From: Labrenzia sp. PHM005
GTDB taxonomy: Bacteria > Pseudomonadota > Alphaproteobacteria > Rhizobiales > Stappiaceae
Length of the DNA stretch: 64,000 bases
Direction of reading: 5' to 3'
NCBI RefSeq assembly: GCF_006517275.1
Contig: NZ_CP041191.1
Span: 1,855,001-1,919,000 of the forward strand
The position numbers and the translations under genes were made by a program. Below the pieces are notes generated by a model that did not search any database, had not been told where the DNA came from, and worked only from the letters and a program-made list of their open reading frames with translations. This document shows positions 10,080 through 22,711 of this stretch, piece by piece. How positions within the stretch are numbered: the stretch's first letter is position 1; each line of letters opens with the position of its first letter.

Positions 10080-11342
10080 ATGGCCGACCGTCCCGATATC
10101 ATGCTGCGATCCCTCTTTGAAAAGGCAGTTGATGTCGCTGATCCGATGAAAAGCCTTGCACGGTTTTTACCGGAAAAGCCTGCGGGCCGGGTTGTTGTCA
10201 TTGGGGCCGGTAAAGCGTCTGCCAGAATGGCAGAAGCTGTAGAAGCTGAATGGGGCCCTTGCGAAGGTTTGGTGATCACCCGCTATGGCTATGGCCGGCC
10301 GACGCAAGGGATCGAGATTGTTGAGGCCGCGCATCCCGTACCGGATGCTGTCGGGCAAGCAGCGACTGAGCGCTTGCTTGATCTGCTGAAAGGCCTTGGC
10401 GGCGATGTGTTTGTCCTGGCGTTGATCTCAGGCGGAGCATCGGCTCTTCTAACGGCACCGGCCGGAGATATCAGCCTGAGCGATAAGCAAGCGGTCAATC
10501 AGGCGCTGCTCGCGTCTGGCGCCCCGATCGGGCAAATGAACGTGGTGCGCAAGCACCTCAGTAATGTGAAGGGCGGTCAACTGGCAGCAGCAGCCTATCC
10601 GGCAAAGATGCTGTCACTGCTCTTGTCTGATGTGCCTGGAGATGATCCGGCGGAGATCGGGTCCGGTCCGACGGTGGGTGATGAAAGCACGTCAGCTGAC
10701 GTCAAAGCGATCCTGGATCAATGGAAAATCGAAGTTCCGGCCTCCGTGTCAGAGGTTTTGGCTGAACCAACTGGGGTGCTTTCCGCGCAAGACACAAAAC
10801 TATCGGCAGTCACAAACACGATATTTGCGGCACCCTCCCAGTCCTTGGAAGCCGCAAAGATACTTGCCGAGGAGTACGGCTGCGATGTGGAACTTCTGGG
10901 CGATGCGCTGGAAGGCGAAGCCCGTGACATTGCCGCAGAACATGCGCAGATGGCGCTTCAACGGCAAAAGGAGCGTGGGCAGGTGGAAAGGCCTTTGGTG
11001 CTCCTGTCCGGCGGCGAGCTGACGGTAACGCGGCGCGGCGATGGTGTCGGAGGCCCCAACACGGAATATGCGCTTGCATTGGCGAACGAGCTCAACGGTG
11101 CTGCCGGGATCTATGCGATCGCTTGTGATACGGATGGCGTCGATGGGGCCGCGGAGGTGGCCGGGGCTGTCATTGGGCCCGATACACCTGCGAAAATCGC
11201 GGCTTTAGGCGAAACAATGGCGGGCTCTCTGGAGCGCAATGACGCCCATACGTTTTTTAACAAGATCGGCGATCAGGTTGTCACAGGACCAACGCTGACA
11301 AACGTGAATGATTTCCGCGCGATTTACATCTCCAGTGTGTGA
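10080..11342 (+). CDS. Glycerate 2-kinase (MOFRL family)
   Basis: Cytoplasmic enzyme of 420 residues of the DUF4147/MOFRL family, which phosphorylates D-glycerate to 2-phosphoglycerate (older annotations call it TtuD or hydroxypyruvate reductase). The N-terminal domain shows VVVIGAGKASARMAEA near residue 39 and LALISGGASALL near 117. The C-terminal MOFRL domain shows LLSGGELTVTRRGDGVGGPNTEYALALA near 308 and ACDTDGVDGAAEVAG near 348. ATG at 10080 is preceded by AACTAGGAG. A GH63-like hydrolase likely to release glycerate is encoded about 8 kb downstream on the same strand, with a sugar importer between, so the kinase probably completes glycosylglycerate catabolism. Confidence 0.88.
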   Translation: MADRPDIMLRSLFEKAVDVADPMKSLARFLPEKPAGRVVVIGAGKASARMAEAVEAEWGPCEGLVITRYGYGRPTQGIEIVEAAHPVPDAVGQAATERLLDLLKGLGGDVFVLALISGGASALLTAPAGDISLSDKQAVNQALLASGAPIGQMNVVRKHLSNVKGGQLAAAAYPAKMLSLLLSDVPGDDPAEIGSGPTVGDESTSADVKAILDQWKIEVPASVSEVLAEPTGVLSAQDTKLSAVTNTIFAAPSQSLEAAKILAEEYGCDVELLGDALEGEARDIAAEHAQMALQRQKERGQVERPLVLLSGGELTVTRRGDGVGGPNTEYALALANELNGAAGIYAIACDTDGVDGAAEVAGAVIGPDTPAKIAALGETMAGSLERNDAHTFFNKIGDQVVTGPTLTNVNDFRAIYISSV

Positions 11343-11519
11343 GCTGAGGTGCCGCCGGTTGAACCCGCATGGTCGATGCTGTTGCCATGTGTTCTGCTTG
11401 CGCGAAAGACAGAGTACGATACGGAGCTCGGTCTAAGTTAAAGGCCCGTCACAGCTTTTTGCCATCTCCCGTTTTGGGTGCTAGGACAAGTTTAGCGAGT
11501 TTCGGCTGAAGGAAGCCAC

Positions 11520-12701
11520 GTGTCAGAAGTCACCATTACCCGGGCGGTACGGATGCCGGATCAGTTCCGCATAGAGCGGTTTCTATCCAATCCAAAGTTC
11601 GGTCCGCGTCTGTTGTTCTTCAGTGGTGGGACAGCGCTGAATGACGTTGCTCGTTGTTTAAAACGATATACGCACAACTCCATCCACTTGGTGACGCCGT
11701 TCGATTCAGGCGGCAGTTCCCAAGGTCTTCGGCTTGCGTTCAACATGCCGGCGATCGGCGATTTGCGCAGCCGGTTGATGGCCTTGGCGGATGAGACGGT
11801 TCTTGGCCAGCCGGATGTCTTTCGCCTGTTTACACACCGGTTTTCTAAAGCTGCTGATTATGAGAACCTGAATGCCGAGCTTGAGGCGATGATCGCCGGA
11901 ATTCATCCGCTGGTCGGTGTGATTGAGCAACCGATGCGCACACTTATTCAAAACCAGCTCGGGACCTTTCAAGATGCTTGTCCAGCTGACTTTAGTTTGC
12001 GCGGGGCAAGTGTCGGCAATCTCATTCTGGCTGGCGGTTATCTCAATCAAAACCAGCAACTCGAGCCGATCATCTTTCTTGTCGCCAAGCTTGTTGGTGT
12101 GCTTGGAACCGTAAAGGCCGTGTCTGATGACAATCTGCACTTGGCCGCAGAATTGGAAGACGGCGAGGTTGTGATTGGCCAGCACCTTCTCACGGGCAAG
12201 GAGCATGCGCCGCTTGCTTCGCCAATCCGGGACATCTTCCTCAATCACAGCTTGGCAGCCCGTGAACCGGCCATATCCGTTTTTCCTGACCGCAACAGAG
12301 CATTGGTGCAGTCAGCGGATTTGATCTGTTATTCGCCAGGAAGCTTATATACGAGCCTCATCGCGAGCTTTCTTCCACGCGGAGTTGGCCGGGCGATCGC
12401 CAACCGGACCGTGCCAAAGGTCTATGTGCCGAGCCTTGGAGAGGATCCGGAAACCAAAGGCATGTCGATTGCTGACAATGTTGACAGGTTGCTGTTTTAT
12501 TTGCGCAAAGACGCCGGGAGCGACTGCCCAGTTGAGCAGCTTCTGAATGTTGTCATCGCCGATCGAAGCATGCCGGACAGTGATGTTACCGATATCGAGA
12601 AACTTGGTATTACCGTTTTGAGGTTGGATCTGATATCCAGCAAAACAGCCCCTTATTATGATCCGGTGCCTTTGTGTGAGGCACTGGTGTCCCTGACATG
12701 A
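11520..12701 (+). CDS. CofD/YvcK-like protein
   Basis: 393-residue protein of the CofD / YvcK superfamily (2-phospho-L-lactate transferase-like fold). The glycine-rich FFSGGTALNDVARCLK near residue 34, the LVTPFDSGGSSQGLR segment near 58 and IGDLRSRLMAL near 78 match the nucleotide/substrate-binding motifs of YvcK. It most resembles the CofD-related proteins described for the GAK gene set, but no ATP-grasp or HprK-like partner is present here. GTG at 11520 follows GAAGGAAG. It is 28 bases from rbsD and downstream of glycerate kinase, so a carbon-metabolism role is likely. No F420 biosynthesis genes are present. Confidence 0.72.
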   Translation: MSEVTITRAVRMPDQFRIERFLSNPKFGPRLLFFSGGTALNDVARCLKRYTHNSIHLVTPFDSGGSSQGLRLAFNMPAIGDLRSRLMALADETVLGQPDVFRLFTHRFSKAADYENLNAELEAMIAGIHPLVGVIEQPMRTLIQNQLGTFQDACPADFSLRGASVGNLILAGGYLNQNQQLEPIIFLVAKLVGVLGTVKAVSDDNLHLAAELEDGEVVIGQHLLTGKEHAPLASPIRDIFLNHSLAAREPAISVFPDRNRALVQSADLICYSPGSLYTSLIASFLPRGVGRAIANRTVPKVYVPSLGEDPETKGMSIADNVDRLLFYLRKDAGSDCPVEQLLNVVIADRSMPDSDVTDIEKLGITVLRLDLISSKTAPYYDPVPLCEALVSLT

Positions 12702-12729
12702 TTGGCAGCAATAAGCTAAGGAGACGGAT

Positions 12730-13140
12730 ATGAAACGGACACCAATGTTGAACCGTCATATGAGCAAACTGATTGCCTCTCTCGGGCACATGGACGAGAT
12801 CGTCGTTGCCGACGCCGGTTTGCCAATTCCTCAGAACGTAGCTGTGCTCGATCTTGCGGTGTCTCCAGGTGTTCCCAGTTTCTTTGATGTTTTGGATGTT
12901 CTGACAAAGGAACTCATTGTCGAACAGGCGGTTTTCGCCGAAGAGGCCAGTCCGGAACTTGCAACGGAGATTGAAGTCCGACTTGCGCATTGGGCTGCAG
13001 AAACCGGAAAGCCGATTGAGCACTCCCGGGTTTCTCACGACGATTTCAAAACCCGCACCAAACAAGCGCGGGCGGTTATCCGTACGGGCGAATGTACGCC
13101 CTATGCCAATGTCATTCTGGTATCAGGTGTGCCGTTTTGA
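12730..13140 (+). CDS. rbsD: D-ribose pyranase-like sugar mutarotase
   Basis: RbsD/FucU family protein of 136 residues, close to the 139 of E. coli RbsD. Such proteins interconvert pyranose/furanose or alpha/beta anomers of monosaccharides. The catalytic His20 and Asp28 fall at the E. coli positions (SLGHMDEIVVADAG), and the C-terminal TPYANVILVSG motif supplies the Tyr/Asn pair. AAGGAGAC precedes ATG 12730. No ribose transporter or ribokinase is nearby; it lies between the CofD-like gene and the LacI sugar operon, so it may handle the hexose released by the GH63 enzyme. That use is inference. Confidence 0.85.
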   Translation: MKRTPMLNRHMSKLIASLGHMDEIVVADAGLPIPQNVAVLDLAVSPGVPSFFDVLDVLTKELIVEQAVFAEEASPELATEIEVRLAHWAAETGKPIEHSRVSHDDFKTRTKQARAVIRTGECTPYANVILVSGVPF

Positions 13141-13665
13141 TTTGTCTTTATTAGGAGCTTCCGTTTGGGTTTGAGCAGCTGTTAAGTAGCCCAAACGCTA
13201 ATCTTTGCGGCGTAAAAAAGAGCTGACGAAATCGGCTGTTGTTTCGAGCTCAAGTCGTTGGAGAATGGCATTCGCTTATAAAATCCATTGCCAGCGAAGC
13301 CGCACGTTTCAAAGGAAGATAGTCAGCCTGAGCTTGTCCAGTGTGGTCATCCCCGATTTGATCGGGGATCTACTCGCTTTGCCACTTGCCGCAAGTCATG
13401 AGTGATTTTGTTGAAGCTCTGCAAGCGAGTGGTTCCCCGGTCTCCGCTGCGCTGCAACGAGGATGGCAGACGTGGGTGAGATCGGAGCTATTTTTCAGCA
13501 TCCGAGTTTATTTCTAAATGTGAAGGCCTTGCGTTTGTGGGAGTGAGTCAAGGGGTGCGCTTTGCAAAAGTGCAATCCCTAGGTGTAGTGAGGCCGCGAA
13601 ACAACAATTTTCCGAAACAAGAATCCAGATAAGTTTTGCTGTTGCGTCAATATCTTCCCGCTTTG
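13141..13665. other. Gene-free stretch with a dispersed palindrome
   Basis: About 525 bases without a convincing gene. It contains ATCCCCGA-TTTGA-TCGGGGAT at 13349-13369, the same repeat type as at 900-920, including a shared preceding GTGGTCAT. The rest shows no recognised element. The open frame 13205-13405 crosses the repeat and lacks coding character. Confidence 0.5.
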
Positions 13666-13722
13666 CAAAATCGGTTTTGTGAATTCGCAAAACCGATTTT
13701 GTTGACTTCCGAAATCGGTTTT
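13666..13722. promoter_or_regulatory. Three tandem LacI-type operators
   Basis: Three near-identical 12-mers AAAATCGGTTTT (13667-13678), AAAACCGATTTT (13689-13700) and GAAATCGGTTTT (13711-13722) are centred exactly 22 bases apart. The first two form a perfect 14-base inverted repeat around TGAATTCG. Each has the central-CG palindrome style of LacI-family operators. TTGACT at 13702-13707 could be the -35 box, so the third site would block a promoter about 90 bases before the LacI gene. Confidence 0.6.
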
Positions 13723-13807
13723 GGAAGCATTGTTGAAACAAGCGCCACGCCTCTTTGATGCGCGGCAAAGAACAATGACAGGGCCTAATTGGCCCACGGG
13801 AGGATAA

Positions 13808-14896
13808 ATGCCGGGTCACCGCGGTTCCGTGACAATCGATGATGTTGCGCGCCATGTCGGCGTTGCAAAGGGAACCGTGTCCCGGGTCCTGAACAACTAC
13901 ACCGACATTTCTGAGGCGACCCGCAAACGGATTTTGAAAGCTGTTCAGGATCTCGGTTATCAGCCCTCGGCGACCGCACGCAATCTCAAACGCGGCCGGC
14001 AGGACACGCTCGGCATTGTAATTCCGGTCGGCCATGGCAGTGGCGCGGACCCGTTTTTAGCAGAATTCATCGATGGGATCGCTCGCGCGCTCGACGAACT
14101 CGGTTTGGATCTTCTTGTGACGACTGCCCACTCGCGGGAGCACATGATCGAGACCATTCAACGGCTGATCGCCCGCCGGAAAGTTGATGGATTTATCCTG
14201 ACTCGAACCGAAGTCGAAGATCCGCGCATTGCCTTCCTGAGTGAGCAAGGGTTCCCCTTTGTCACTCATGGCCGGTCAAGTTTTCCCGACACCCATGCCT
14301 GGTTTGACATCGACAACGAGAAGGCCTTTGCCGACGGTGTGCGCCACATCTACAGCCTTGGCCACAGCCGGATCGGGTTTCTCGGTGGTTCCCTGGAACT
14401 GAATTTTGCGCAGCAGCGCCGGAACGGCTATCGCGCCGGTCTGGAAGCGCTCGGAGTGGCGCATGATCCGGCGTTGGAGACCTTGCAGGATCTCGATGAA
14501 AAAGGCGGATTTGCCGGAGCTAAAGCGCTTTTGGCAAAACTCGAGACACCGCCGACGGCGTTGCTCTGCGTCACCGACGCTCTGGCGATCGGCGCAATCC
14601 AGTTTTGCCGCAAGTACGGCCTTGAGGTCGGCAAGGATGTGACCGTCATTGGATATGACGGGTTGCCTTTTGGCGAATATCTCGATCCGCCGCTGACCAC
14701 CTTTTCCCAGAGCGCACTCGATGCCGGCAGCCGTGTTGCCCGCATGCTGGTCGACGTTCTGGATGGCAAAGATCCGACAAGCCTGAAAGCGCTTGCCGAA
14801 GCAACCTTGATCCGGCGCGCCTCCGATGGCGCACCGCAAAGAACACCGGAGGCACTGGCTGACGTGCTCCGGCACCGGCTGAACCAACAGCCATGA
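13808..14896 (+). CDS. LacI family transcriptional regulator
   Basis: 362-residue LacI/GalR regulator. The N-terminal helix-turn-helix is clear: VTIDDVARHVGVAKGTVSRVLNN with the hinge helix SATARNLKRGR, followed by a periplasmic-binding-like ligand domain from TLGIVIP onward. It is the first gene of the sugar-transport operon; the binding-protein gene begins 22 bases after its stop. Three operator-like repeats lie 86-142 bases upstream, so autoregulation and control of the transporter are likely. The inducer is probably the transported glycoside or a product. The arrangement is that of AglR with alpha-glucoside transporters. Confidence 0.92.
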   Translation: MPGHRGSVTIDDVARHVGVAKGTVSRVLNNYTDISEATRKRILKAVQDLGYQPSATARNLKRGRQDTLGIVIPVGHGSGADPFLAEFIDGIARALDELGLDLLVTTAHSREHMIETIQRLIARRKVDGFILTRTEVEDPRIAFLSEQGFPFVTHGRSSFPDTHAWFDIDNEKAFADGVRHIYSLGHSRIGFLGGSLELNFAQQRRNGYRAGLEALGVAHDPALETLQDLDEKGGFAGAKALLAKLETPPTALLCVTDALAIGAIQFCRKYGLEVGKDVTVIGYDGLPFGEYLDPPLTTFSQSALDAGSRVARMLVDVLDGKDPTSLKALAEATLIRRASDGAPQRTPEALADVLRHRLNQQP

Positions 14897-14918
14897 CCTG
14901 GCAGTAAGGGAGACTGAT

Positions 14919-16268
14919 ATGATTGGGAGGAGTACTTTCCTGACCTCGACCATTGCGGGTGTGCTCGCACTGGGATTGACCGCGGCTCAGGCAGAAACCT
15001 TGCGTTTCTGGACAACTGAAGAACAGCCGGAGCGCTTGGCCAAACAGGAAGAGATGGCGGCAGCGTTCAAAGAAAAAACCGGCATTGAGATTGATGTTAT
15101 TCCGGTCACTGAATCGGATCTTGGAACCCGCGCGACTGCAGCCTTTGCGGCTGGTGATCTTCCGGATGTGATTTACCATCCGTTGCAGTATGCGCTGCCT
15201 TGGGCAGAAGCGGGCATCTTGGATACAGATGCTGCAACTGAGGTTCTGGAAAACCTGGGAACCGGCACCTTTGCACCCGGCGCGGTGGCCATGGCGTCGG
15301 TGGAAGGCGGCATTGCGTCAGTCCCGGTCGATGGCTGGACTCAAATGGTCGTCTACCGCAAGGACCTGTTCGAAGCGAACGGTCTTGCTGCACCGGACAG
15401 CTACGAAAGCGTCTTGGCAGCCGTTGAAAAACTGCACAATCCGCCGGAAATGTTTGCTTTTGTCGCCGCGACCAAGGTCGACGAGAACTTCATGAGCCAG
15501 GTTCTGGAGCATGTGCTTCTGGCAAACGGTGTCAGCCCGGTCGACAGTAAGGGCTTCAAGGCTCTGGACGAGAAAAAGACTGTGGAAGCGCTCGAATTCT
15601 ACAAGGCCATCGCAAAAGCATCGCCTCCGGGTGATCTTTTCTGGAAGCAGTCTCGTGAGCTGTATTTTGCTGGCAAAGCTGCGATGATCATCTGGTCTCC
15701 GTTCATTCTTGATGAGCTGGCTGGTCTGCGTGACAGTGCACCGCCAACCATTACGGATGACCCGACTTCCAAGGAGCTCGCTTCCAAAACTGGGATCGTG
15801 ACCACTTTGAAAGGTCCGTCCAATCCGGCTGGCGCAGCATGGGGTGACGTCCGCTACTTCGGCATCACCAACGATGCGGATACGGATGCAGCCATGCAGT
15901 TTGTCGAGTTCTCAATGGACGATGGCTATATGTCGACCTTATCAATCGCTCCGGAAGGCAAGTTCCCAATCCGGCGCGGCACCAAGGACAATGCAACAGC
16001 CTTTGTTGAAGGCTGGTCCAAGTTGCCGGTTGGTGTGGACCGTAAGGCGCCGCTCACTGAGCTTTATGATCCTGAAACCATCAGCACGATCGTATCCGGT
16101 CTCGACACCGCTGCACGTTGGGGTGTGAAGGAAGGCCAGCTGTCATTGGCGTCCAAGATCATCAACAGCCAAGTGATCAACCGTCTGGTGCGCGAGTACA
16201 TCGACGGCGAACGGGATGCGGCTCAGACTGTAGCTCAGCTGAACGAAGAACTGGCCAAGATCCAGTAA
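14919..16268 (+). CDS. Sugar ABC transporter substrate-binding protein
   Basis: 449-residue periplasmic binding protein of the SBP_bac_1 (MalE/AglE) type. A Sec signal peptide ends near AAQA-ETLRFW. Typical features are the LRFWTTEEQ start of the mature domain and DLPDVIYHPLQYALPWAE. GGGAGA precedes ATG 14919. It delivers the sugar to the two permeases downstream. Because the operon encodes a GH63 enzyme resembling mannosylglycerate/glucosylglycerate hydrolases, the ligand may be a glycosylglycerate rather than a plain alpha-glucoside. A hairpin follows the gene, as is common after highly expressed binding-protein genes. Confidence 0.9.
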   Translation: MIGRSTFLTSTIAGVLALGLTAAQAETLRFWTTEEQPERLAKQEEMAAAFKEKTGIEIDVIPVTESDLGTRATAAFAAGDLPDVIYHPLQYALPWAEAGILDTDAATEVLENLGTGTFAPGAVAMASVEGGIASVPVDGWTQMVVYRKDLFEANGLAAPDSYESVLAAVEKLHNPPEMFAFVAATKVDENFMSQVLEHVLLANGVSPVDSKGFKALDEKKTVEALEFYKAIAKASPPGDLFWKQSRELYFAGKAAMIIWSPFILDELAGLRDSAPPTITDDPTSKELASKTGIVTTLKGPSNPAGAAWGDVRYFGITNDADTDAAMQFVEFSMDDGYMSTLSIAPEGKFPIRRGTKDNATAFVEGWSKLPVGVDRKAPLTELYDPETISTIVSGLDTAARWGVKEGQLSLASKIINSQVINRLVREYIDGERDAAQTVAQLNEELAKIQ

Positions 16269-16278
16269 CCTCTCCGGC

Positions 16279-16305
16279 GGCCCGCGTTTTATAAGAATGC
16301 GGGCC
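16279..16305 (+). promoter_or_regulatory. Intercistronic hairpin after binding-protein gene
   Basis: GGCCCGC (16279-16285) and GCGGGCC (16299-16305) form a seven-base stem with a 13-base loop, 11 bases after the binding-protein stop. There is no U-run, so it more likely stabilises the upstream mRNA or lowers downstream expression than terminates. Confidence 0.5.
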
Positions 16306-16463
16306 TGCCAATCACTTCTTTGCTTAATCCGTCGGCGCCCGTTTCCGCGTCCGCAGGATGAAACGAGGATGAAGCGAAACGAATTGATTCGGCGGATTGT
16401 CCGGCGAAGCCTAGTGACCGACACACTTTTCTTCCTGTCCGCATCGAAACTTGAAGCAGAAAA

Positions 16464-17768
16464 ATGACCGCTCAAGAGCAGACCATTGCACAGCCGCGGC
16501 CGCCGAAAGGCATAGGGCCGATGCAACGCCGGGAAATGCGGCTTGCCTATTTGATGCTGGCGCCGACCTTCCTGATCATTCTGGCGATTGTTGCCGGGCC
16601 GCTGCTGGCCAATTTCTGGATCAGCTTCAAGCCGGTGCAATTGGCCGACCTCCGGCCGCCGAGTGTCCTTGTTAACGAGCGCATGCGCGGCAAACCGGCA
16701 GCGCCGGGCGATGCGGCAACTCTTGAATACCGGCTGCGCAATTCTTCGCAGGACAAGGAAATCCGCGACGTGGTCCTGCGTGACCAGCTTCCTGCGGGTT
16801 TTGATGTTACCGCCGTGCCAGAAACATGTACGGTGCAAGGCTTAGCCATCACATGTGATATTGGCAATGTGCCGCCGAAGTGGCGTGAACGTCTACGCTT
16901 TGAAGGCACGGTGTCAGAAAGCTATCTGTCCGCCGACCGGCCGGAACGGGCTAGCGTTCCGGAGGTGTCAGGGGATGCCGATAACGTTCTGACGAACTTT
17001 GAATTCACCTTCGAAAACTTCAGCCGGATCTTTGATGCGCACGAGTTCTGGTCGGTGCTCCGGGTGACGTTCTACTACACGATTTTTGGCACCGCCGGAG
17101 CTTTGGTGCTCGGTCTGTTTGCCGCCCAGCTTTTGAACACGTCTTTCAAAGGCCGGGGTTTTCTGCGGGGGCTGTTTCTCTTCCCCTATGTGTCGCCGGT
17201 GATCGCGGTTGCCTTTACCTGGGTCGTTCTGTTCGATCCCTTTTCAGGCACTTTGAATGCGCTTTTGACCAAGATGGGCGTGGTTGCAGATCCGATCAAT
17301 TTCTTCGGCCAGCGCGCTGTCGAGTTTTCGTTCTTCGGCATTCCGATGGAGTTTCCGCTGGCGCTCTCAACGGTGATCGCCTTTGAGGCCTGGCGGTATT
17401 TTCCGCTGTCTTTCCTGTTCATTCTGGCGCGGATGCAGTCTCTCAACACAGATATCTATGAAGCGGCCGAGATGGATGGTGCCACGCCGTTGCAGCAGTT
17501 CTGGTATCTGTCGCTGCCGCAGTTAATGGGCATCCTGTCGGTGTTGTTCCTGCTGCGATTCATTTGGACGTTCAACAAGTTCGACGACATCTTCCTGCTG
17601 ACGGGTGGCAACGCTGGTACGCGGACACTGACCGTCGATGTTTATGAGCAAGGTTTTGCACTCTCCAACCTCGGCGCGGGTGCAGCCGTTGCTGTGGTCG
17701 TCTTTGTGGTTCTGGTGACCTTTGCAACGCTCTTCTTGCACTTCTCACCCAAGGAGGAAGGCCTATGA
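16464..17768 (+). CDS. Sugar ABC permease with large periplasmic domain
   Basis: 434-residue inner-membrane permease of the MalF type. TM1 (LAYLMLAPTFLIILAIVAGPLLA) lies at about residues 28-50. It is followed by a 120-130 residue extracytoplasmic insertion (about 60-185) with a DUF11-like beta-rich texture, including ATLEYRLRNSS, LRDQLPAGFDVTAVPE and ITCDIGNVPP. The remaining membrane helices and the EAA loop (EAAEMDGATPLQQFWYLSLP) come after. The insertion is reminiscent of the MalF P2 loop that touches the binding protein, but sits after TM1 instead of TM3. Its stop overlaps the next start by four bases. Confidence 0.88.
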   Translation: MTAQEQTIAQPRPPKGIGPMQRREMRLAYLMLAPTFLIILAIVAGPLLANFWISFKPVQLADLRPPSVLVNERMRGKPAAPGDAATLEYRLRNSSQDKEIRDVVLRDQLPAGFDVTAVPETCTVQGLAITCDIGNVPPKWRERLRFEGTVSESYLSADRPERASVPEVSGDADNVLTNFEFTFENFSRIFDAHEFWSVLRVTFYYTIFGTAGALVLGLFAAQLLNTSFKGRGFLRGLFLFPYVSPVIAVAFTWVVLFDPFSGTLNALLTKMGVVADPINFFGQRAVEFSFFGIPMEFPLALSTVIAFEAWRYFPLSFLFILARMQSLNTDIYEAAEMDGATPLQQFWYLSLPQLMGILSVLFLLRFIWTFNKFDDIFLLTGGNAGTRTLTVDVYEQGFALSNLGAGAAVAVVVFVVLVTFATLFLHFSPKEEGL

Positions 17769-18994
17769 GACCCGGCAGCGTTCTTATTGCGGCCATCACT
17801 GGCCTGATTTGGGGTGTGACCGCCATGGTGGTCATCGGTGTTACGCTAACGCTGGTCACGGGCGAAGTTGCTCTCCCGCAAGCCACTGCCGCTGGGTTGG
17901 CTGGGCTGCTCGGAGCGTTGGTTTTTGTCTGGCGCCAGACATCGGATGCTGCAGGACTTCCGGCCTGGGCGCTGTCGGCACTGGTTACAACGCTGGTCCT
18001 GTTGGCGGGCACCTTTGCAGCTCCCTTCACCTTGCCGCTCTCAAGCGTTCCGCTCTGGCAAATGGCGGGATTGATCGCCTTTGTTGGCTGTGTAACAGCT
18101 GCAAACAAGGTCAGCCTCGACGGGGCAAGCCTAGGAGCCATGTCGCGCTACCACCGGGAAGTCATTTACATCCGGATCTTCAAGGGTATAGGCTTTGTGG
18201 TGTTCACCATCATCGTGGCGCTGCCGTTTTATGTGATGGTGATGACGTCCCTGAAAAGCCAGCAAACGTTGCTTGCCAATCCGCTGGACCTTTCCATCGA
18301 CCTTTCCCAAGGGTTTGACGGTCTGTTCCGCTCCTATGTGGAGCTGTTCACGAAATTCAATTTTGGGCGTTATCTGATGGTGTCGGCCTTTGTCTCCGTC
18401 GCGACCGTGATCCTGACGCTGCTGTTTTCTGTCCCCGGGGCTTATGCAGTCTCTCGGCTGCGATTCCCAGGCCAAGCGTTTCTGTCCCGCTCGGTGCTGT
18501 TGATCTACATGGTTCCCGCGATCGTTCTAGTGATCCCGCTTTATGCGGTGTTCTCGCAGCTTGGATTGCGCAACACGCTGACCGGTCTTCTGATCGTTTA
18601 TCCGGCAACGACCATTCCCGTCGCGCTCTACATGTTACAGGGCTATTTCCGCGGACTGCCATCGGAACTGGAAGAGGCGGGACTGATGGACGGCCTGTCG
18701 CGGCTGGGTGTCATCTTGAAAATCACCTTGCCGCTCTCCCTGCCGGCGCTGGCCTCCGTGTCGCTTTATGTCTTCATGATTGCCTGGAACGAATTCCTTT
18801 TTGCTTTCATGTTCCTGGACGATCCGGACATCTTCACGCTGTCACGGGGCGTCGTGTCGCTGAATTCCTCGGAGGTACCGCGCCAGCATTTGATGGCCGG
18901 TGCAGTGATCGCGACAGTTCCTGTTCTCTTCATATTCCTTTGGTTCGAACGCTTCCTTGTCCAGGGCCTGACGGCCGGCAGCGTGAAGGGCTGA
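17765..18994 (+). CDS. Sugar ABC permease with extended N-terminus
   Basis: 409-residue MalG-type inner-membrane permease. The C-terminal 270 residues are standard, with a periplasmic loop after TM1, the EAA motif EEAGLMDGLSRLGVILKITLP near residue 300 and SVSLYVFMIAWNEFLFAFMF. The first 115 residues hold about four extra hydrophobic segments (IAAITGLIWGVTAMVVIGVTL, GLAGLLGALVFVW, LSALVTTLVLLAGTFAA, MAGLIAFVGCVTAA) not found in ordinary MalG proteins of about 280-300 residues. ATG at 17765 overlaps the preceding stop (ATGA), so the long start is well supported. Confidence 0.88.
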   Translation: MRPGSVLIAAITGLIWGVTAMVVIGVTLTLVTGEVALPQATAAGLAGLLGALVFVWRQTSDAAGLPAWALSALVTTLVLLAGTFAAPFTLPLSSVPLWQMAGLIAFVGCVTAANKVSLDGASLGAMSRYHREVIYIRIFKGIGFVVFTIIVALPFYVMVMTSLKSQQTLLANPLDLSIDLSQGFDGLFRSYVELFTKFNFGRYLMVSAFVSVATVILTLLFSVPGAYAVSRLRFPGQAFLSRSVLLIYMVPAIVLVIPLYAVFSQLGLRNTLTGLLIVYPATTIPVALYMLQGYFRGLPSELEEAGLMDGLSRLGVILKITLPLSLPALASVSLYVFMIAWNEFLFAFMFLDDPDIFTLSRGVVSLNSSEVPRQHLMAGAVIATVPVLFIFLWFERFLVQGLTAGSVKG

Positions 18995-19037
18995 TCATCT
19001 TCATCAAAGAGCTCCCAAGAAGCTCAAGGAGACTTGT

Positions 19038-20327
19038 GTGTCACAGAACGATCTAGATCAAACCGCCCGCGACATCCTGATCGGCAATGATCAAGGCGGT
19101 TATACGGTTCCCACAAAAGGGCTTTATCCCTACCAGTGGAACTGGGATTCCGTTTTTGTCGCCCGCGGGTTCGCGACTTTCAACCCGGATCGCGCCTGGC
19201 GGGAAATCGAGCTGTTGTTCGAAGGCCAGTGGCGGGACGGCATGGTGCCGCACATCCTGTTCCGTAAGGACGATCCAAGTTATTTCCCCGGGCCGTCTGT
19301 CTGGGGAACCGATGGCGGACCGATCCCAAGCTCGGGTCATTCCCAGCCGCCGGTGGCCGCGACCATTGTGCGTGATCTGCTTGAACTGGACAGCAGTGAT
19401 GCCGCAGCGGGCAGAGCCAAGGGGCTCTTTCCCAAAATCCTGCATTGGCATCGCTGGTACATGCAGTACCGGGATCCGGACGGCCTGGGTGTTGTGGCGG
19501 TTATTCATCCTTGGGAATCTGGTCGGGATAATTTGCCGGATTGGGATGACGCTTTGCGGGCGGTCGAGGTCAAGGATGTCGAGCCTTATGTGCGCAAGGA
19601 TACATCTCACGTCGACCCGGAAATGCGCCCGCACAAGGAAGACTATGACCGGTATCTCTCCATCGTTGCCGCGTGCCGGAAAGTTGGCTGGGATCCGGAA
19701 AAAGTCGCCCGGACGTGTCCGTTCTTCGTAGCTGATCCCGGCATCACCTTTATCCTCTTAAGGGCCTGTCGGGACCTTCTGGCGCTTGCCGGTAAGCTGG
19801 GTCTGAAGGAACATATGGCAGAGATCGAAGGTTGGATTTCCCGTTTGGAAAGCGGTGCGGCCCGGCTTTGGAACCCGGACCTGAAAGCCCATGTTGCGCT
19901 CGATTTGCGGACGGGCAAGCTGACGGATGGTGTGTCGAGCGCGTCCTTTCTGGCGCCTTACGCAGGCCTTTCCGGCCCTGATGTTCTTCCCGCGGTGCAG
20001 GATCACTTCGACCGGATTGGTTCCAAGGTTCGGTATCTGATGCCGTCCTATGACCCGGATCACCCGAAGTTTGAGCATCTGCGGTATTGGCGGGGGCCTG
20101 TCTGGGCGATGGTCAATTTCATGATTTCCAGAGGCCTTTCGGAAGCTGGGGACGCCGTCCGCGCCGAGCGCTTGCGCGCCGATACGGCAGCCCTCATTCA
20201 ATCAGGCGGTTTTGCAGAATACTTCAGTCCGGAAACCGCAGTCGCCGCGGGAGGCGGGTCCTTTTCCTGGACCGCAGCAATCTGGCTTGCCTGGGCAACG
20301 CCATCACACGCAGAACAGGCAGCTTAA
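19038..20327 (+). CDS. GH63-like glycosylglycerate hydrolase
   Basis: 429-residue cytoplasmic (alpha/alpha)6-barrel glycoside hydrolase. YPYQWNWDSVFVARG near residue 30 and HPWESGRDNLPDWD near 157 match the mannosylglycerate/glucosylglycerate hydrolase branch of GH63. Asp164 (SGRDN) and Glu394 (FAEYFSP) sit where the catalytic acid and base are expected, followed by the typical GSFSWTAA. It likely cleaves a hexosyl-glycerate to hexose and glycerate, which fits the glycerate kinase upstream. GTG at 19038 follows AAGGAGAC. Trehalase-like or alpha-glucosidase activity on another solute is the alternative. No signal peptide is seen, so it acts after import. Confidence 0.82.
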   Translation: MSQNDLDQTARDILIGNDQGGYTVPTKGLYPYQWNWDSVFVARGFATFNPDRAWREIELLFEGQWRDGMVPHILFRKDDPSYFPGPSVWGTDGGPIPSSGHSQPPVAATIVRDLLELDSSDAAAGRAKGLFPKILHWHRWYMQYRDPDGLGVVAVIHPWESGRDNLPDWDDALRAVEVKDVEPYVRKDTSHVDPEMRPHKEDYDRYLSIVAACRKVGWDPEKVARTCPFFVADPGITFILLRACRDLLALAGKLGLKEHMAEIEGWISRLESGAARLWNPDLKAHVALDLRTGKLTDGVSSASFLAPYAGLSGPDVLPAVQDHFDRIGSKVRYLMPSYDPDHPKFEHLRYWRGPVWAMVNFMISRGLSEAGDAVRAERLRADTAALIQSGGFAEYFSPETAVAAGGGSFSWTAAIWLAWATPSHAEQAA

Positions 20328-20345
20328 GAGGGCGGGGAGAAAGAC

Positions 20346-21407
20346 ATGGGAGCGATCCAGCTCAAACGCGTCGAAAAATGGTTTGGTGACCTGCAGGTCA
20401 TCAAGGGGATCGATCTCGATATTCAAGACGGCGAGTTCGTGATTTTTGTTGGCCCGTCCGGCTGTGGAAAATCGACCTTATTGCGGTTGATCTCCGGTCT
20501 GGAAGAATCCAGCCGCGGCGGAATCGAGATTGACGGTAAGGATGTCACCGCTTTGCCGCCGTCCGGCCGTGGCCTGTCGATGGTGTTTCAGTCTTATGCG
20601 CTTTATCCGCATATGTCCGTGCGCGAAAACGTCGGTTTCGGATTGAAAACAGCAGGCGTGCCAAAGGCCGAGATCGACCGCAAGGTCAATGGTGCAGCTG
20701 AAATCTTGAAGCTCGATGACTACCTTGATCGGCGCCCGAAGGCACTCTCAGGCGGCCAGCGTCAGCGGGTGGCAATCGGCCGGGCAATCGTGCGTGAACC
20801 AAGTGCGTTTTTGTTCGATGAACCCTTGTCGAACCTTGATGCTGCTCTTCGGGTAGAAATGCGTTTTGAAGTGGCCCGGCTGCACAAGAGCCTCGGCACG
20901 ACGATGATATATGTGACACACGATCAGGTCGAAGCCATGACCTTGGCCGACAAGATCGTTGTGCTGCAATCCGGGGAGATTGAGCAGGTCGGTTCACCGC
21001 GCGAACTCTATGAACGGCCGGACAATCTGTTTGTCGCCCAGTTCATCGGTTCGCCGAAAATGAATGTTCTGCCGTGTTCTGTCGAAGGCGATGCATTTTC
21101 GCTGGATGGCCATGGCGGCGGCCACTATCCGCATTCCAATGCTACTCGATCCCCGGTCAAACTTGGAATCCGTCCGGAGCACATGCATGTAGTTGCACCA
21201 GAAGAGGGGCATTGCACGGGTTCGGTCGAAGTGGCCGAGTATTTGGGCGCTGACACGTTCCTTTATGTAGCGTTGGACGGTTTAGACACCATTTTGGTGC
21301 GTATCAGTGGCAGCGAAACCATTGAAGAAGGCGCGCGTATCGGACTGAAATTCGATGAAAGCCGCATGCATTTCTTTGACAAGGATGATCGGGCCATCTG
21401 GGCATAA
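20346..21407 (+). CDS. Sugar ABC transporter ATPase (UgpC/MsmK type)
   Basis: 353-residue cytoplasmic ATPase of the carbohydrate importer. Walker A is GPSGCGKST near residue 39, the signature is [14 protein letters not shown] near 135, Walker B is AFLFDEP, and the switch His is in VTHDQ near 192. The C-terminal 120 residues form the TOBE-type regulatory domain ([10 protein letters not shown]). It starts 18 bases after the hydrolase with GGCGGGGAG upstream and closes the operon. No terminator is visible after it. Confidence 0.93.
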
Positions 21408-21589
21408 CACATCCAACTCAGATAAGCGCAAGGTGCTCAACTTAAAGGGAAAATTTCAGGAAAAGGGCCATCTGGAAGGGGCTGATCCATAATGGGGTAG
21501 CCTAAGGGTATTGGAAAAAGTACCTACTTTTCCTTTGGTTGCAGTGTTCATAAAATGGAGTGACTGCTGGAAAGGAGACGCTTTCTTTT

Positions 21590-22711
21590 ATGACTGCAGG
21601 TAGATATTTTATATTTGTACTTGTCCTCGCAATTGCGGGTTTTGGTTCGCCTGCTTTCTCGTCCGGTTTCAAAATTACGTTTATCAATCCAGGCGGTGAC
21701 GGCAGCTTTTGGGGGGAAGTCTCCAAAACCATGGCAGCGGCAGCCGGGGATCTCGATATTGATCTGGAGATCCTCAACGCAAACCGGCGCCCTTACGCGA
21801 TGGAGAAACTTCTACAAGAGCGATTGGATCGAGGGGATTTGCCAGACTATTTTGTTCTTGTGAACGAACTCCAAGAAGGCACACGCCTTGCGAAGATGTT
21901 GCGCCAAAAGCCGGTTAAAATACTGTTCCTGCTCAACACGTTGTCAGCATATCAAATGCAGGTTGTCCTGCAGGAGCCTGGCATAGAGAACCAGCTTGTT
22001 GCATCGATAATTCCAGACAATGAAACTGCCGGCTATGAGATGGCCAAGTCTCTCATCTCTGCAGCCAGATCGTTACATTCGGCGTCGCCCGTGCTGCGTG
22101 TTTTGGCTTTGACAGGAGATGAAAGCACACCTGCTGCTCTGGACCGGGAGCAAGGCATGCTTCGTGGTTTGGCGGAGGAGGACAATCTCGAACTGTTGAG
22201 AGCGATCCCGGTAGAATGGAGCAGCGCACTCGCATACGCCAGGGCGAAAAATTATTTGGCGCGGACAACGGTGGACGCCATATGGGCGGCCAACGATGAT
22301 ATCGCTTTAGCAGCTGGGAAAGCGGCGGCAGAACTTGGACTAGTTCCAGGAAAAGACATTGCTCTGGTTGGGCTGAATTGGTCCCGTCCCGGCATGTATG
22401 CAGTATCCACCGGCGCGTTGGCGATGTCTCATGGCGGACATTTTTTTGCTGGCGCTTGGGCTGCAGTGATGTTGTACGACTTTCATCATAGCAGTTCACA
22501 GTACTCTGCCATCGCTCCAGGAAAAGCAGGCTCGGCTGTGGTCAATTTCAAGATGTCTGCGATTACTCCAGAAAACGTCGGTAAATACTTAGAAAAATTG
22601 GGTGACGGCGACTGGTCGAAAATCGACTTCGCCCAGTTTAGCAAAGTCATAACAGGACATACCGGTTATGATTTTTCAGCCCAAGCCATTCTGAATGCTG
22701 CAGGAAACTGA
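21590..22711 (+). CDS. Orphan type 1 periplasmic binding protein
   Basis: 373-residue exported protein with a signal peptide (YFIFVLVLAIAGFGSPAFSS). The mature part is a ribose-binding/LacI-like type 1 periplasmic fold: FKITFINPGGDGSFWGEV at the start, a DNETAGYEMAKSL segment, VDAIWAANDDIALAAGKAA near residue 235 and IALVGLNWSRPG. Such proteins serve ABC importers or act as ligand sensors for histidine kinases and cyclic-di-GMP enzymes. No permease, ATPase or kinase is adjacent. The preferred ATG at 21590 has AAGGAG upstream; an in-frame GTG lies at 21560. Ligand is unknown. Confidence 0.7.
   Translation: MTAGRYFIFVLVLAIAGFGSPAFSSGFKITFINPGGDGSFWGEVSKTMAAAAGDLDIDLEILNANRRPYAMEKLLQERLDRGDLPDYFVLVNELQEGTRLAKMLRQKPVKILFLLNTLSAYQMQVVLQEPGIENQLVASIIPDNETAGYEMAKSLISAARSLHSASPVLRVLALTGDESTPAALDREQGMLRGLAEEDNLELLRAIPVEWSSALAYARAKNYLARTTVDAIWAANDDIALAAGKAAAELGLVPGKDIALVGLNWSRPGMYAVSTGALAMSHGGHFFAGAWAAVMLYDFHHSSSQYSAIAPGKAGSAVVNFKMSAITPENVGKYLEKLGDGDWSKIDFAQFSKVITGHTGYDFSAQAILNAAGN

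Follow-up and report, generated by a model that had tools for sequence, protein, structure and literature searches.

A gene cluster of Labrenzia sp. PHM005 with a GH63-type hydrolase, predicted to serve the catabolism of mannosylglycerate and/or glucosylglycerate

The DNA analysed here is a 64,000-nucleotide stretch (the window) of the 6.19 Mb genome of Labrenzia sp. PHM005. At 10080-21407 it holds a set of genes, all on the plus strand, for a kinase, a CofD-like protein, an RbsD-type protein, a LacI-family regulator, the parts of an ATP-binding cassette (ABC) transporter and a hydrolase of the GH63 type. The kinase is a DUF4147/MOFRL glycerate 2-kinase (10080-11342) and is followed by a protein of the CofD/YvcK superfamily (11520-12701; TIGR04357, "GAK system CofD-like") and an RbsD-type D-ribose pyranase/sugar mutarotase (12730-13140; PRK11797). 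A gap of 667 bp separates these three genes from the LacI-family regulator (13808-14896), which is preceded by three predicted tandem palindromic operators of the LacI type (13666-13723). Behind the regulator lie an extracellular solute-binding protein (14919-16268), a MalF/UgpA-like permease (16464-17768), a MalG-like permease with an N-terminal extension of about 140 residues (17765-18994), the hydrolase (19038-20327) and a MalK/UgpC-type transport ATPase (20346-21407). The regulator, the binding protein and the ATPase were assigned by matches to family profiles.

We found that the hydrolase matches PF22422 with 389.8 bits (cut-off 27). Its nearest solved relative is the mannosylglycerate hydrolase (MGH) of Thermus (2z07; phmmer E 2.5e-115, 389 bits), and the next is the mycobacterial glucosylglycerate hydrolase (GgH; E 7e-59, 203 bits), while the alpha-glucosidase YgjK of E. 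coli reaches only about 30 bits. Identity is 47% to Thermus MGH over 409 positions and 33% to mycobacterial GgH. We also built a FastTree tree of 50 sequences with a 612-residue protein of locus L275 as root; several of its deep nodes are poorly supported, and both characterised enzymes fall among the hydrolases of this set. Thus the enzyme groups with MGH and GgH and not with plain alpha-glucosidases. The original prediction had described a GH63-like hydrolase with the motif layout of these enzymes, and the two residues that it named, Asp164 (predicted acid) and Glu394 (predicted base), correspond to the catalytic Asp182 and Glu419 in GgH of Mycolicibacterium hassiacum.

The active site was compared residue by residue. 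Twenty-seven residues named in an excerpt of PMC6608630 were mapped onto the hydrolase. Identity was seen at 21, including the catalytic pair and the 11 substrate residues that are listed there as strictly conserved in the characterised enzymes. The conserved set in the hydrolase is Y30, W34, W36, D37, Y82, Q103, G162, D164, R197, Y203, Y350, W351 and E394. The catalytic Asp and Glu are kept in 79 of 79 sequences compared, the window included, and the glycerate contacts, which are the counterparts of Tyr36, Trp40, Tyr88, Arg216 and Tyr375, in 78 or 79. Seventeen of the 21 residues were also compared with Thermus MGH and are identical in all three enzymes. These 17 are conserved in 77 to 79 of the 79 sequences, and most exceptions come from a single row (L155, genome G629), in which the hydrolase match is split over two frames and four N-terminal sites are odd. 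Gln434, a sugar contact of the mycobacterial enzyme, is Phe here as in Thermus MGH, and Phe stands at this position in 79 of 79 sequences. As a control we used the 612-residue PF22422 protein of L275, which has another architecture and 24% identity. It retains the catalytic pair, whereas the counterparts of Tyr36, Tyr88, Gln115, Trp177, Arg216 and Tyr222 are replaced or fall in gaps. This protein (L275:4568-6406), which lacks several of the glycerate-binding residues, is the longer of two PF22422 hydrolases encoded in the L275 cluster, the other being the homologue of our hydrolase.

The hydrolase had been described as lying inside a sugar ABC operon, and this arrangement recurs. Hydrolase relatives were present in 28 of 199 genomes sampled from the order (E up to 1e-40) and in 18 of 398 sampled from the phylum (E up to 1e-80), with the own genome and G041 common to both samples. 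Gene surroundings were compared at 27 loci of the order sample and 15 of the phylum sample; G562 of the latter was left out, its match score being equal to that of G564. In 22 of the 27 and 11 of the 15 loci (33 of 42) the hydrolase has a binding protein of the same type beside it, and the usual order in other genera is LacI, binding protein, permease, permease, hydrolase, ATPase. Gene contexts were read mechanically from the longest open reading frames (ORFs), so that small or overlapping genes may escape. The similarity of the hydrolase together with the gene order is far beyond chance.

By profile matches the ABC parts resemble the Mal and Ugp transporters. By eye, the MalF-like permease has an insertion of about 115 residues behind its first hydrophobic segment; this stretch has no Pfam match, and its position presumably resembles that of the MalF P2 domain. 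In a profile search the binding protein scored highest with E. coli YcjN (101.5 bits; next 94.9), and a single-sequence search ranked the top two matches in reverse order. We take the E. coli ycj operon to hold a glucosylglycerate phosphorylase. An E. coli enzyme with this activity is listed in the excerpt of PMC7178133. Downstream of the ATPase lies a lone periplasmic sugar-binding-type protein (21560-22711), and the four closest genomes (L129-L131, L156) have relatives of 55-56% identity in the corresponding position.

The glycerate 2-kinase, which the original prediction had placed upstream on the same strand, is the only copy found in this genome and passes the gathering scores of both Pfam domains (PF13660, 270 bits; PF05161, 109.9 bits). 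We searched 87 genomes of the family for kinase and hydrolase, 45 of them from this genus (the Roseibium group). Operon type A, defined by a hydrolase of at least 70% identity, was found in 31 of the 45, and in 26 of the 31, window included, kinase, CofD, LacI, transporter and hydrolase stand in the same order on the same strand. Additional ORFs are interspersed in some of these blocks, and in some genus genomes ORFs on the opposite strand lie inside the block. Fifteen further kinase loci were seen in the genus, with CofD in one only; relatives of the kinase thus also occur in other neighbourhoods.

Linkage of kinase and hydrolase is also found outside the genus. Among 42 genome loci of other genera, three (L046, L275 and L283) have the kinase within 7 kb of the hydrolase; in L046 it is 58% identical and directly follows the ATPase, and in L283 it is on the divergent strand. 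Two of the five best plasmid records, from Maritalea (L288) and Limimaricola (L289), have a kinase near the hydrolase. On a plasmid of Deinococcus peraridilitoris (L284), the binding protein, permeases, ATPase, hydrolase, kinase and a ROK sugar kinase stand in a row, and hydrolase and kinase overlap by 4 bp. The plasmid records are not a random sample, since H1-H5 are the best 5 of 102 and H14 was chosen because its annotation names DUF4147. With H14 left out, a kinase at 5 of 47 loci has an estimated chance probability of 2e-6 if the loci are independent and kinases occur once per 4.5 Mb. The co-occurrence of kinase, LacI and transporter that had been proposed as a check is therefore seen in other genomes, with arrangements in another phylum among them, yet a kinase is near in only the three of 42 loci just named.

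The three operators ahead of LacI (13666-13679, 13688-13701 and 13710-13723) are spaced 22 bp apart; two are exact and the third has one mismatch. The palindrome [CAT][AG]AAA-N-CG-N-TTT[TC]G is found near the LacI start, from 400 bp upstream to 60 bp downstream, in 46 of 53 rows and before CofD in 0 of 31. When up to two mismatches were allowed, 3 sites were counted in the window against 1.3 expected by chance, and 16 of 100 shuffles reached 3. In the window, no LacI-type operator was found within 400 bp before the kinase, CofD or RbsD at a threshold of 6 of 7 palindromic positions plus the central CG, a setting that weaker sites would escape. Because of the 667 bp gap and the absence of an operator before the kinase, the kinase, CofD and RbsD genes probably form a second transcription unit and not one operon with the genes from LacI to the ATPase. 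Neither a single operon running from kinase to ATPase nor co-regulation of the kinase by this LacI was supported.

RbsD scores 169.9 bits against PRK11797 (cut-off 93) and is the sole copy detected across this genome (E up to 1e-10). It has His20 and Asp28, which we take to be the catalytic residues. A close copy (at least 74% identity) occurs in 23 of the 31 type-A genomes and in none of the other 8, as counted independently of the ORF contexts, and the gene is clearly dispensable. Since the hydrolase family acts with inversion (PMC6608630), it is conceivable that RbsD serves as a mutarotase for the released beta-hexose. The idea that RbsD is a further step of the pathway has partial support only, given the lack of a close copy in 8 genomes.

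The CofD-like protein scores 502.5 bits against TIGR04357 (cut-off 340). Its AlphaFold model (pLDDT 90) matches structures of the UPF0052/YvcK type first (2o2z and 2ppv; E 5.8e-20, TM 0.81 on the target), ahead of CofD itself (3c3d; E 2.2e-9, TM 0.65). The matched UPF0052 entries are presumably YvcK orthologues. An F420-type role as 2-phospho-lactate transferase was rejected as first choice because the UPF0052/YvcK type is closer in both sequence profile and fold. Of the earlier suggestion that the CofD-like gene adds a step to the pathway, the linkage stands, with CofD beside the operon in 31 of 31 type-A genomes; the protein itself is YvcK-like and not an F420-type transferase.

Within the genus, CofD is present in 36 of 45 genomes as a single copy each. 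Copies of at least 70% identity occur in all 31 genomes that have the operon type and in 1 of the 14 that lack it; these genomes are related and not independent, so that a Fisher test on these counts overstates the certainty. In G617, CofD stands in that half of the rearranged block which holds the kinase and the binding protein, and in G634 its linkage runs to the contig end. The ATP-grasp gene of the GAK system occurs in 31 of 45 genomes, all of which carry CofD. It lies 1.9-2.2 kb from CofD in G607, G611, G624 and G639, and at least 29 kb from the type-A CofD in the 19 genomes measurable on one contig. CofD stands by the operon with no ATP-grasp match in the genome studied here (G000) and in G602, G614, G623 and G629, the last being in 680 pieces. 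The best score for ATP-grasp (TIGR04356) in the own genome is 24.7 bits against a cut-off of 300, and an intact GAK system in this genome was rejected on this ground. An HprK-related kinase (TIGR04355) gave no tblastn match with one relative as query in the 64 kb window, the only stretch searched.

Beyond the genus we compared the best 80 of 474 CofD relatives, some in stretches shortened by contig ends; the best-matching named ones are mostly Labrenzia/Roseibium. Among the 56 of these that lie outside the Roseibium group, ATP-grasp is found in 28 stretches, glycerate kinase or RbsD beside CofD in none, and the hydrolase operon beside CofD in one, from Fluviibacterium (L248), where it faces CofD. 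In Thalassovita gelatinovora (L236), ATP-grasp (454 bits, cut-off 300) and HprK-related kinase B (320.6 bits, cut-off 200) are divergent from CofD. The simplest reading is that the CofD-like gene moved from a GAK locus into the cluster and that some species then lost at least one other GAK gene. This relocation is the less expected part of the finding, and we found no literature that names the GAK system together with CofD. The stretch from Fluviibacterium sp. MJW13 (L248:9941-18937), in which the GAK-type CofD faces the hydrolase operon across one unassigned ORF, is a second adjacency outside Roseibium.

What the relocated protein might do is suggested by GlmR/YvcK of Bacillus subtilis, which is of the UPF0052 type that gave the closest solved folds. 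GlmR/YvcK is required for growth on gluconeogenic carbon (PMC6171935), which suggests, without proof, a similar task for the CofD-like protein. Here we can offer only a speculative proposal, which we consider doubtful: that the CofD-like protein is a carbon-partitioning protein of the GlmR/YvcK type that, in an ancestral member of this Roseibium lineage, moved out of the GAK locus and joined the glycosylglycerate catabolic cluster, because growth on solutes that yield glycerate would be gluconeogenic and would need extra drive into UDP-sugar and cell-wall synthesis. The two proteins differ in that identity in the structural match is about 23% and that the one described here is tied to a catabolic cluster. 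If the proposal is true, species with CofD and without ATP-grasp would be a natural experiment on a lone GAK CofD-like protein. Independently of the proposal, the cluster places a GAK-system CofD-like protein in a defined metabolic setting.

Between kinase and CofD a close relative has a Dabb-domain gene (L130:4326-4637), and ORFs of similar size occur there in L129, L131 and Roseibium denhamense (L203); no remnant of the Dabb-domain gene was detected in the window. In R. denhamense (L203, genome G606), kinase, small ORF, CofD and RbsD lie together and apart from a hydrolase operon of another type, indicating that the kinase-CofD-RbsD unit can stand alone. There (L203:3182-9590) a pyruvate-oxidase/acetolactate-synthase-like enzyme and a gene that is dioxygenase-ferredoxin-like in part precede the kinase unit, which perhaps belongs to a different pathway.

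Our data suggest, with a probability of about 0.85, that the cluster serves the catabolism of mannosylglycerate and/or glucosylglycerate. The binding protein and the ABC transporter would import the intact glycosylglycerate, an osmolyte that other organisms would have produced, and the GH63-type hydrolase would cleave it in the cytoplasm, with inversion, to a hexose and D-glycerate. The kinase would convert glycerate to 2-phosphoglycerate, so that carbon would flow into lower glycolysis. LacI would repress the import and hydrolase operon through the three tandem operators, and kinase, CofD-like protein and RbsD would form an adjacent, probably separately transcribed unit. The joint sequence of import, cleavage and phosphorylation had been proposed by the original prediction, and it draws support from the synteny in 26 of 31 genus genomes and from the kinases in Maritalea, Limimaricola and Deinococcus.

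Several observations weigh against this assignment to glycosylglycerate catabolism. Six of the 27 mapped hydrolase residues differ (the counterparts of Tyr191, Ser214, Gln215, Met432, Gln433 and Gln434), and the hydrolase scores 344 bits against the NCBIfam GgH equivalog NF047898, whose cut-off is 550. Because the hydrolase and its relatives from Meiothermus and Deinococcus score under this cut-off, it is filed by sequence as a member of the GH63-type mannosylglycerate/glucosylglycerate hydrolase family and not as the equivalog. Likewise the kinase reaches 221 bits against NF041176 (equivalog cut-off 550) and is filed as a DUF4147/MOFRL glycerate 2-kinase by its Pfam domains only. No close relative of the binding protein has a known ligand, and the structure model, at a pLDDT of 39.5, was not used. 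No hexose-processing gene was found among the ten proteins scanned in the window, and no LacI-type operator was found ahead of the kinase in any of 31 rows. Within the type-A genomes the kinase is elsewhere in 3 of 31 (G612, G613 and G637), the block is rearranged in G617 and cut by contig ends in G634 in a way that fits the usual order, the kinase match holds stop codons in G610 and G614 (L075 and L145) and may be broken there, and the hydrolase of G629 is in two pieces. Finally, a nearby kinase is missing from 39 of the 42 loci of other genera (in L045 one lies 12.8 kb off on the other strand, and in L043 a partial kinase lies at the edge of the locus), so that linkage is frequent in certain lineages only.

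Which hexose is released is a narrower question, on which the relatives give mixed signs. It is quite possible, though we hold it tentatively, that mannosylglycerate is the only substrate and that glucosylglycerate is incidental. Mannosylglycerate is exemplified by the digeneaside of red algae. The hydrolase is closer to Thermus MGH than to mycobacterial GgH and shares the invariant Phe at the Gln434 position. In L275 it occurs with a short-chain dehydrogenase/reductase (SDR), an SMP-30 type lactonase, a mannonate dehydratase, a PfkB kinase and a glycerate kinase, a set that reads as mannose to mannonate to 2-keto-3-deoxygluconate (KDG). Isomerases/epimerases of the AGE family are encoded next to the hydrolase in L283, behind the ATPase in L280 and, at a distance of about 8 kb, in Limimaricola (L289), but AGE epimerases act on other sugars too, and none of the helper genes of the relatives is in the window. 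Against a substrate restricted to the mannosyl compound there is also the Meiothermus locus L285, where the hydrolase is accompanied by a GH13_18-type, sucrose-phosphorylase-like protein with a TETN motif, which points to a glucosyl compound there. According to the excerpt of the review PMC7178133, TETN marks glucosylglycerate phosphorylase; a second motif, PYxLN, was not found in the Meiothermus protein.

Two other explanations were considered. The cluster might import another alpha-glycoside, a di- or oligosaccharide, with the hydrolase acting as a broad alpha-glucosidase or trehalase-like enzyme. PF22422 does span other hydrolases, with matches in 7 of 14 control genomes and the 612-residue L275 protein as an example; public annotation calls relatives "trehalase family glycosidase", and the ABC parts resemble Mal and Ugp transporters. 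We nevertheless regard this as very improbable, given the retained glycerate contacts, the low YgjK score and the repeated linkage to a glycerate 2-kinase, for which an ordinary disaccharide would have no need. It is also unlikely that the kinase, CofD and RbsD genes are mere neighbours, functionally unrelated to the import operon. Such a reading would fit the 667 bp gap without a shared operator, the separate unit of R. denhamense, the three genomes with the kinase elsewhere and the 8 of 31 that lack RbsD. The kinase linkage, however, recurs in other genera and in another phylum in different positions, and the CofD distribution across the genus follows the operon, with the caveat of relatedness given above. 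Catabolism of a glycosylglycerate with a linked kinase is thus the reading that we prefer.

Mannosyl- and glucosylglycerate occur in red algae, picocyanobacteria and many heterotrophs, and the cluster suggests in concrete terms how marine bacteria may use them as food. It also suggests better names for genes annotated "hypothetical protein" or "trehalase family glycosidase" beside such transporters. A description of this cluster was not found in the literature searched, which included excerpts of PMC6608630, PMC5507952, PMC10608839, PMC11009771, PMC7178133 and PMC6171935, supplements not covered. From the sequence comparisons it appears well supported that known enzymes and pathway logic are extended here to an ABC/GH63/kinase arrangement for which that search gave no published precedent.

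The closest known enzyme is Thermus thermophilus MGH (TTHA0978; 2z07, 4wva-c), to which the hydrolase is 47% identical and with which it shares 17 of 17 compared active-site residues. This comparison concerns the enzyme itself; the hydrolase described here sits in an ABC/LacI operon. In E. coli, mngAB provides for mannosylglycerate uptake by a phosphotransferase system (PTS) and for intracellular cleavage of the phosphorylated form by a GH38 enzyme. Uptake followed by intracellular cleavage would be shared with the cluster described here, whereas PTS and GH38 there correspond to ABC and GH63 here. M. hassiacum GgH belongs to the same family and has the same catalytic pair and glycerate contacts, at 33% identity and with its Gln434 replaced by Phe in our enzyme. 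It is reported to mobilise the cell's own glucosylglycerate after nitrogen starvation (PMC6608630). The GH13_18 glucosylglycerate phosphorylase gene sets described in the excerpt of PMC7178133 likewise place a glycosylglycerate-cleaving enzyme near a glycerate kinase; those sets use phosphorolysis, whereas the cluster of Labrenzia sp. PHM005 would use hydrolysis.

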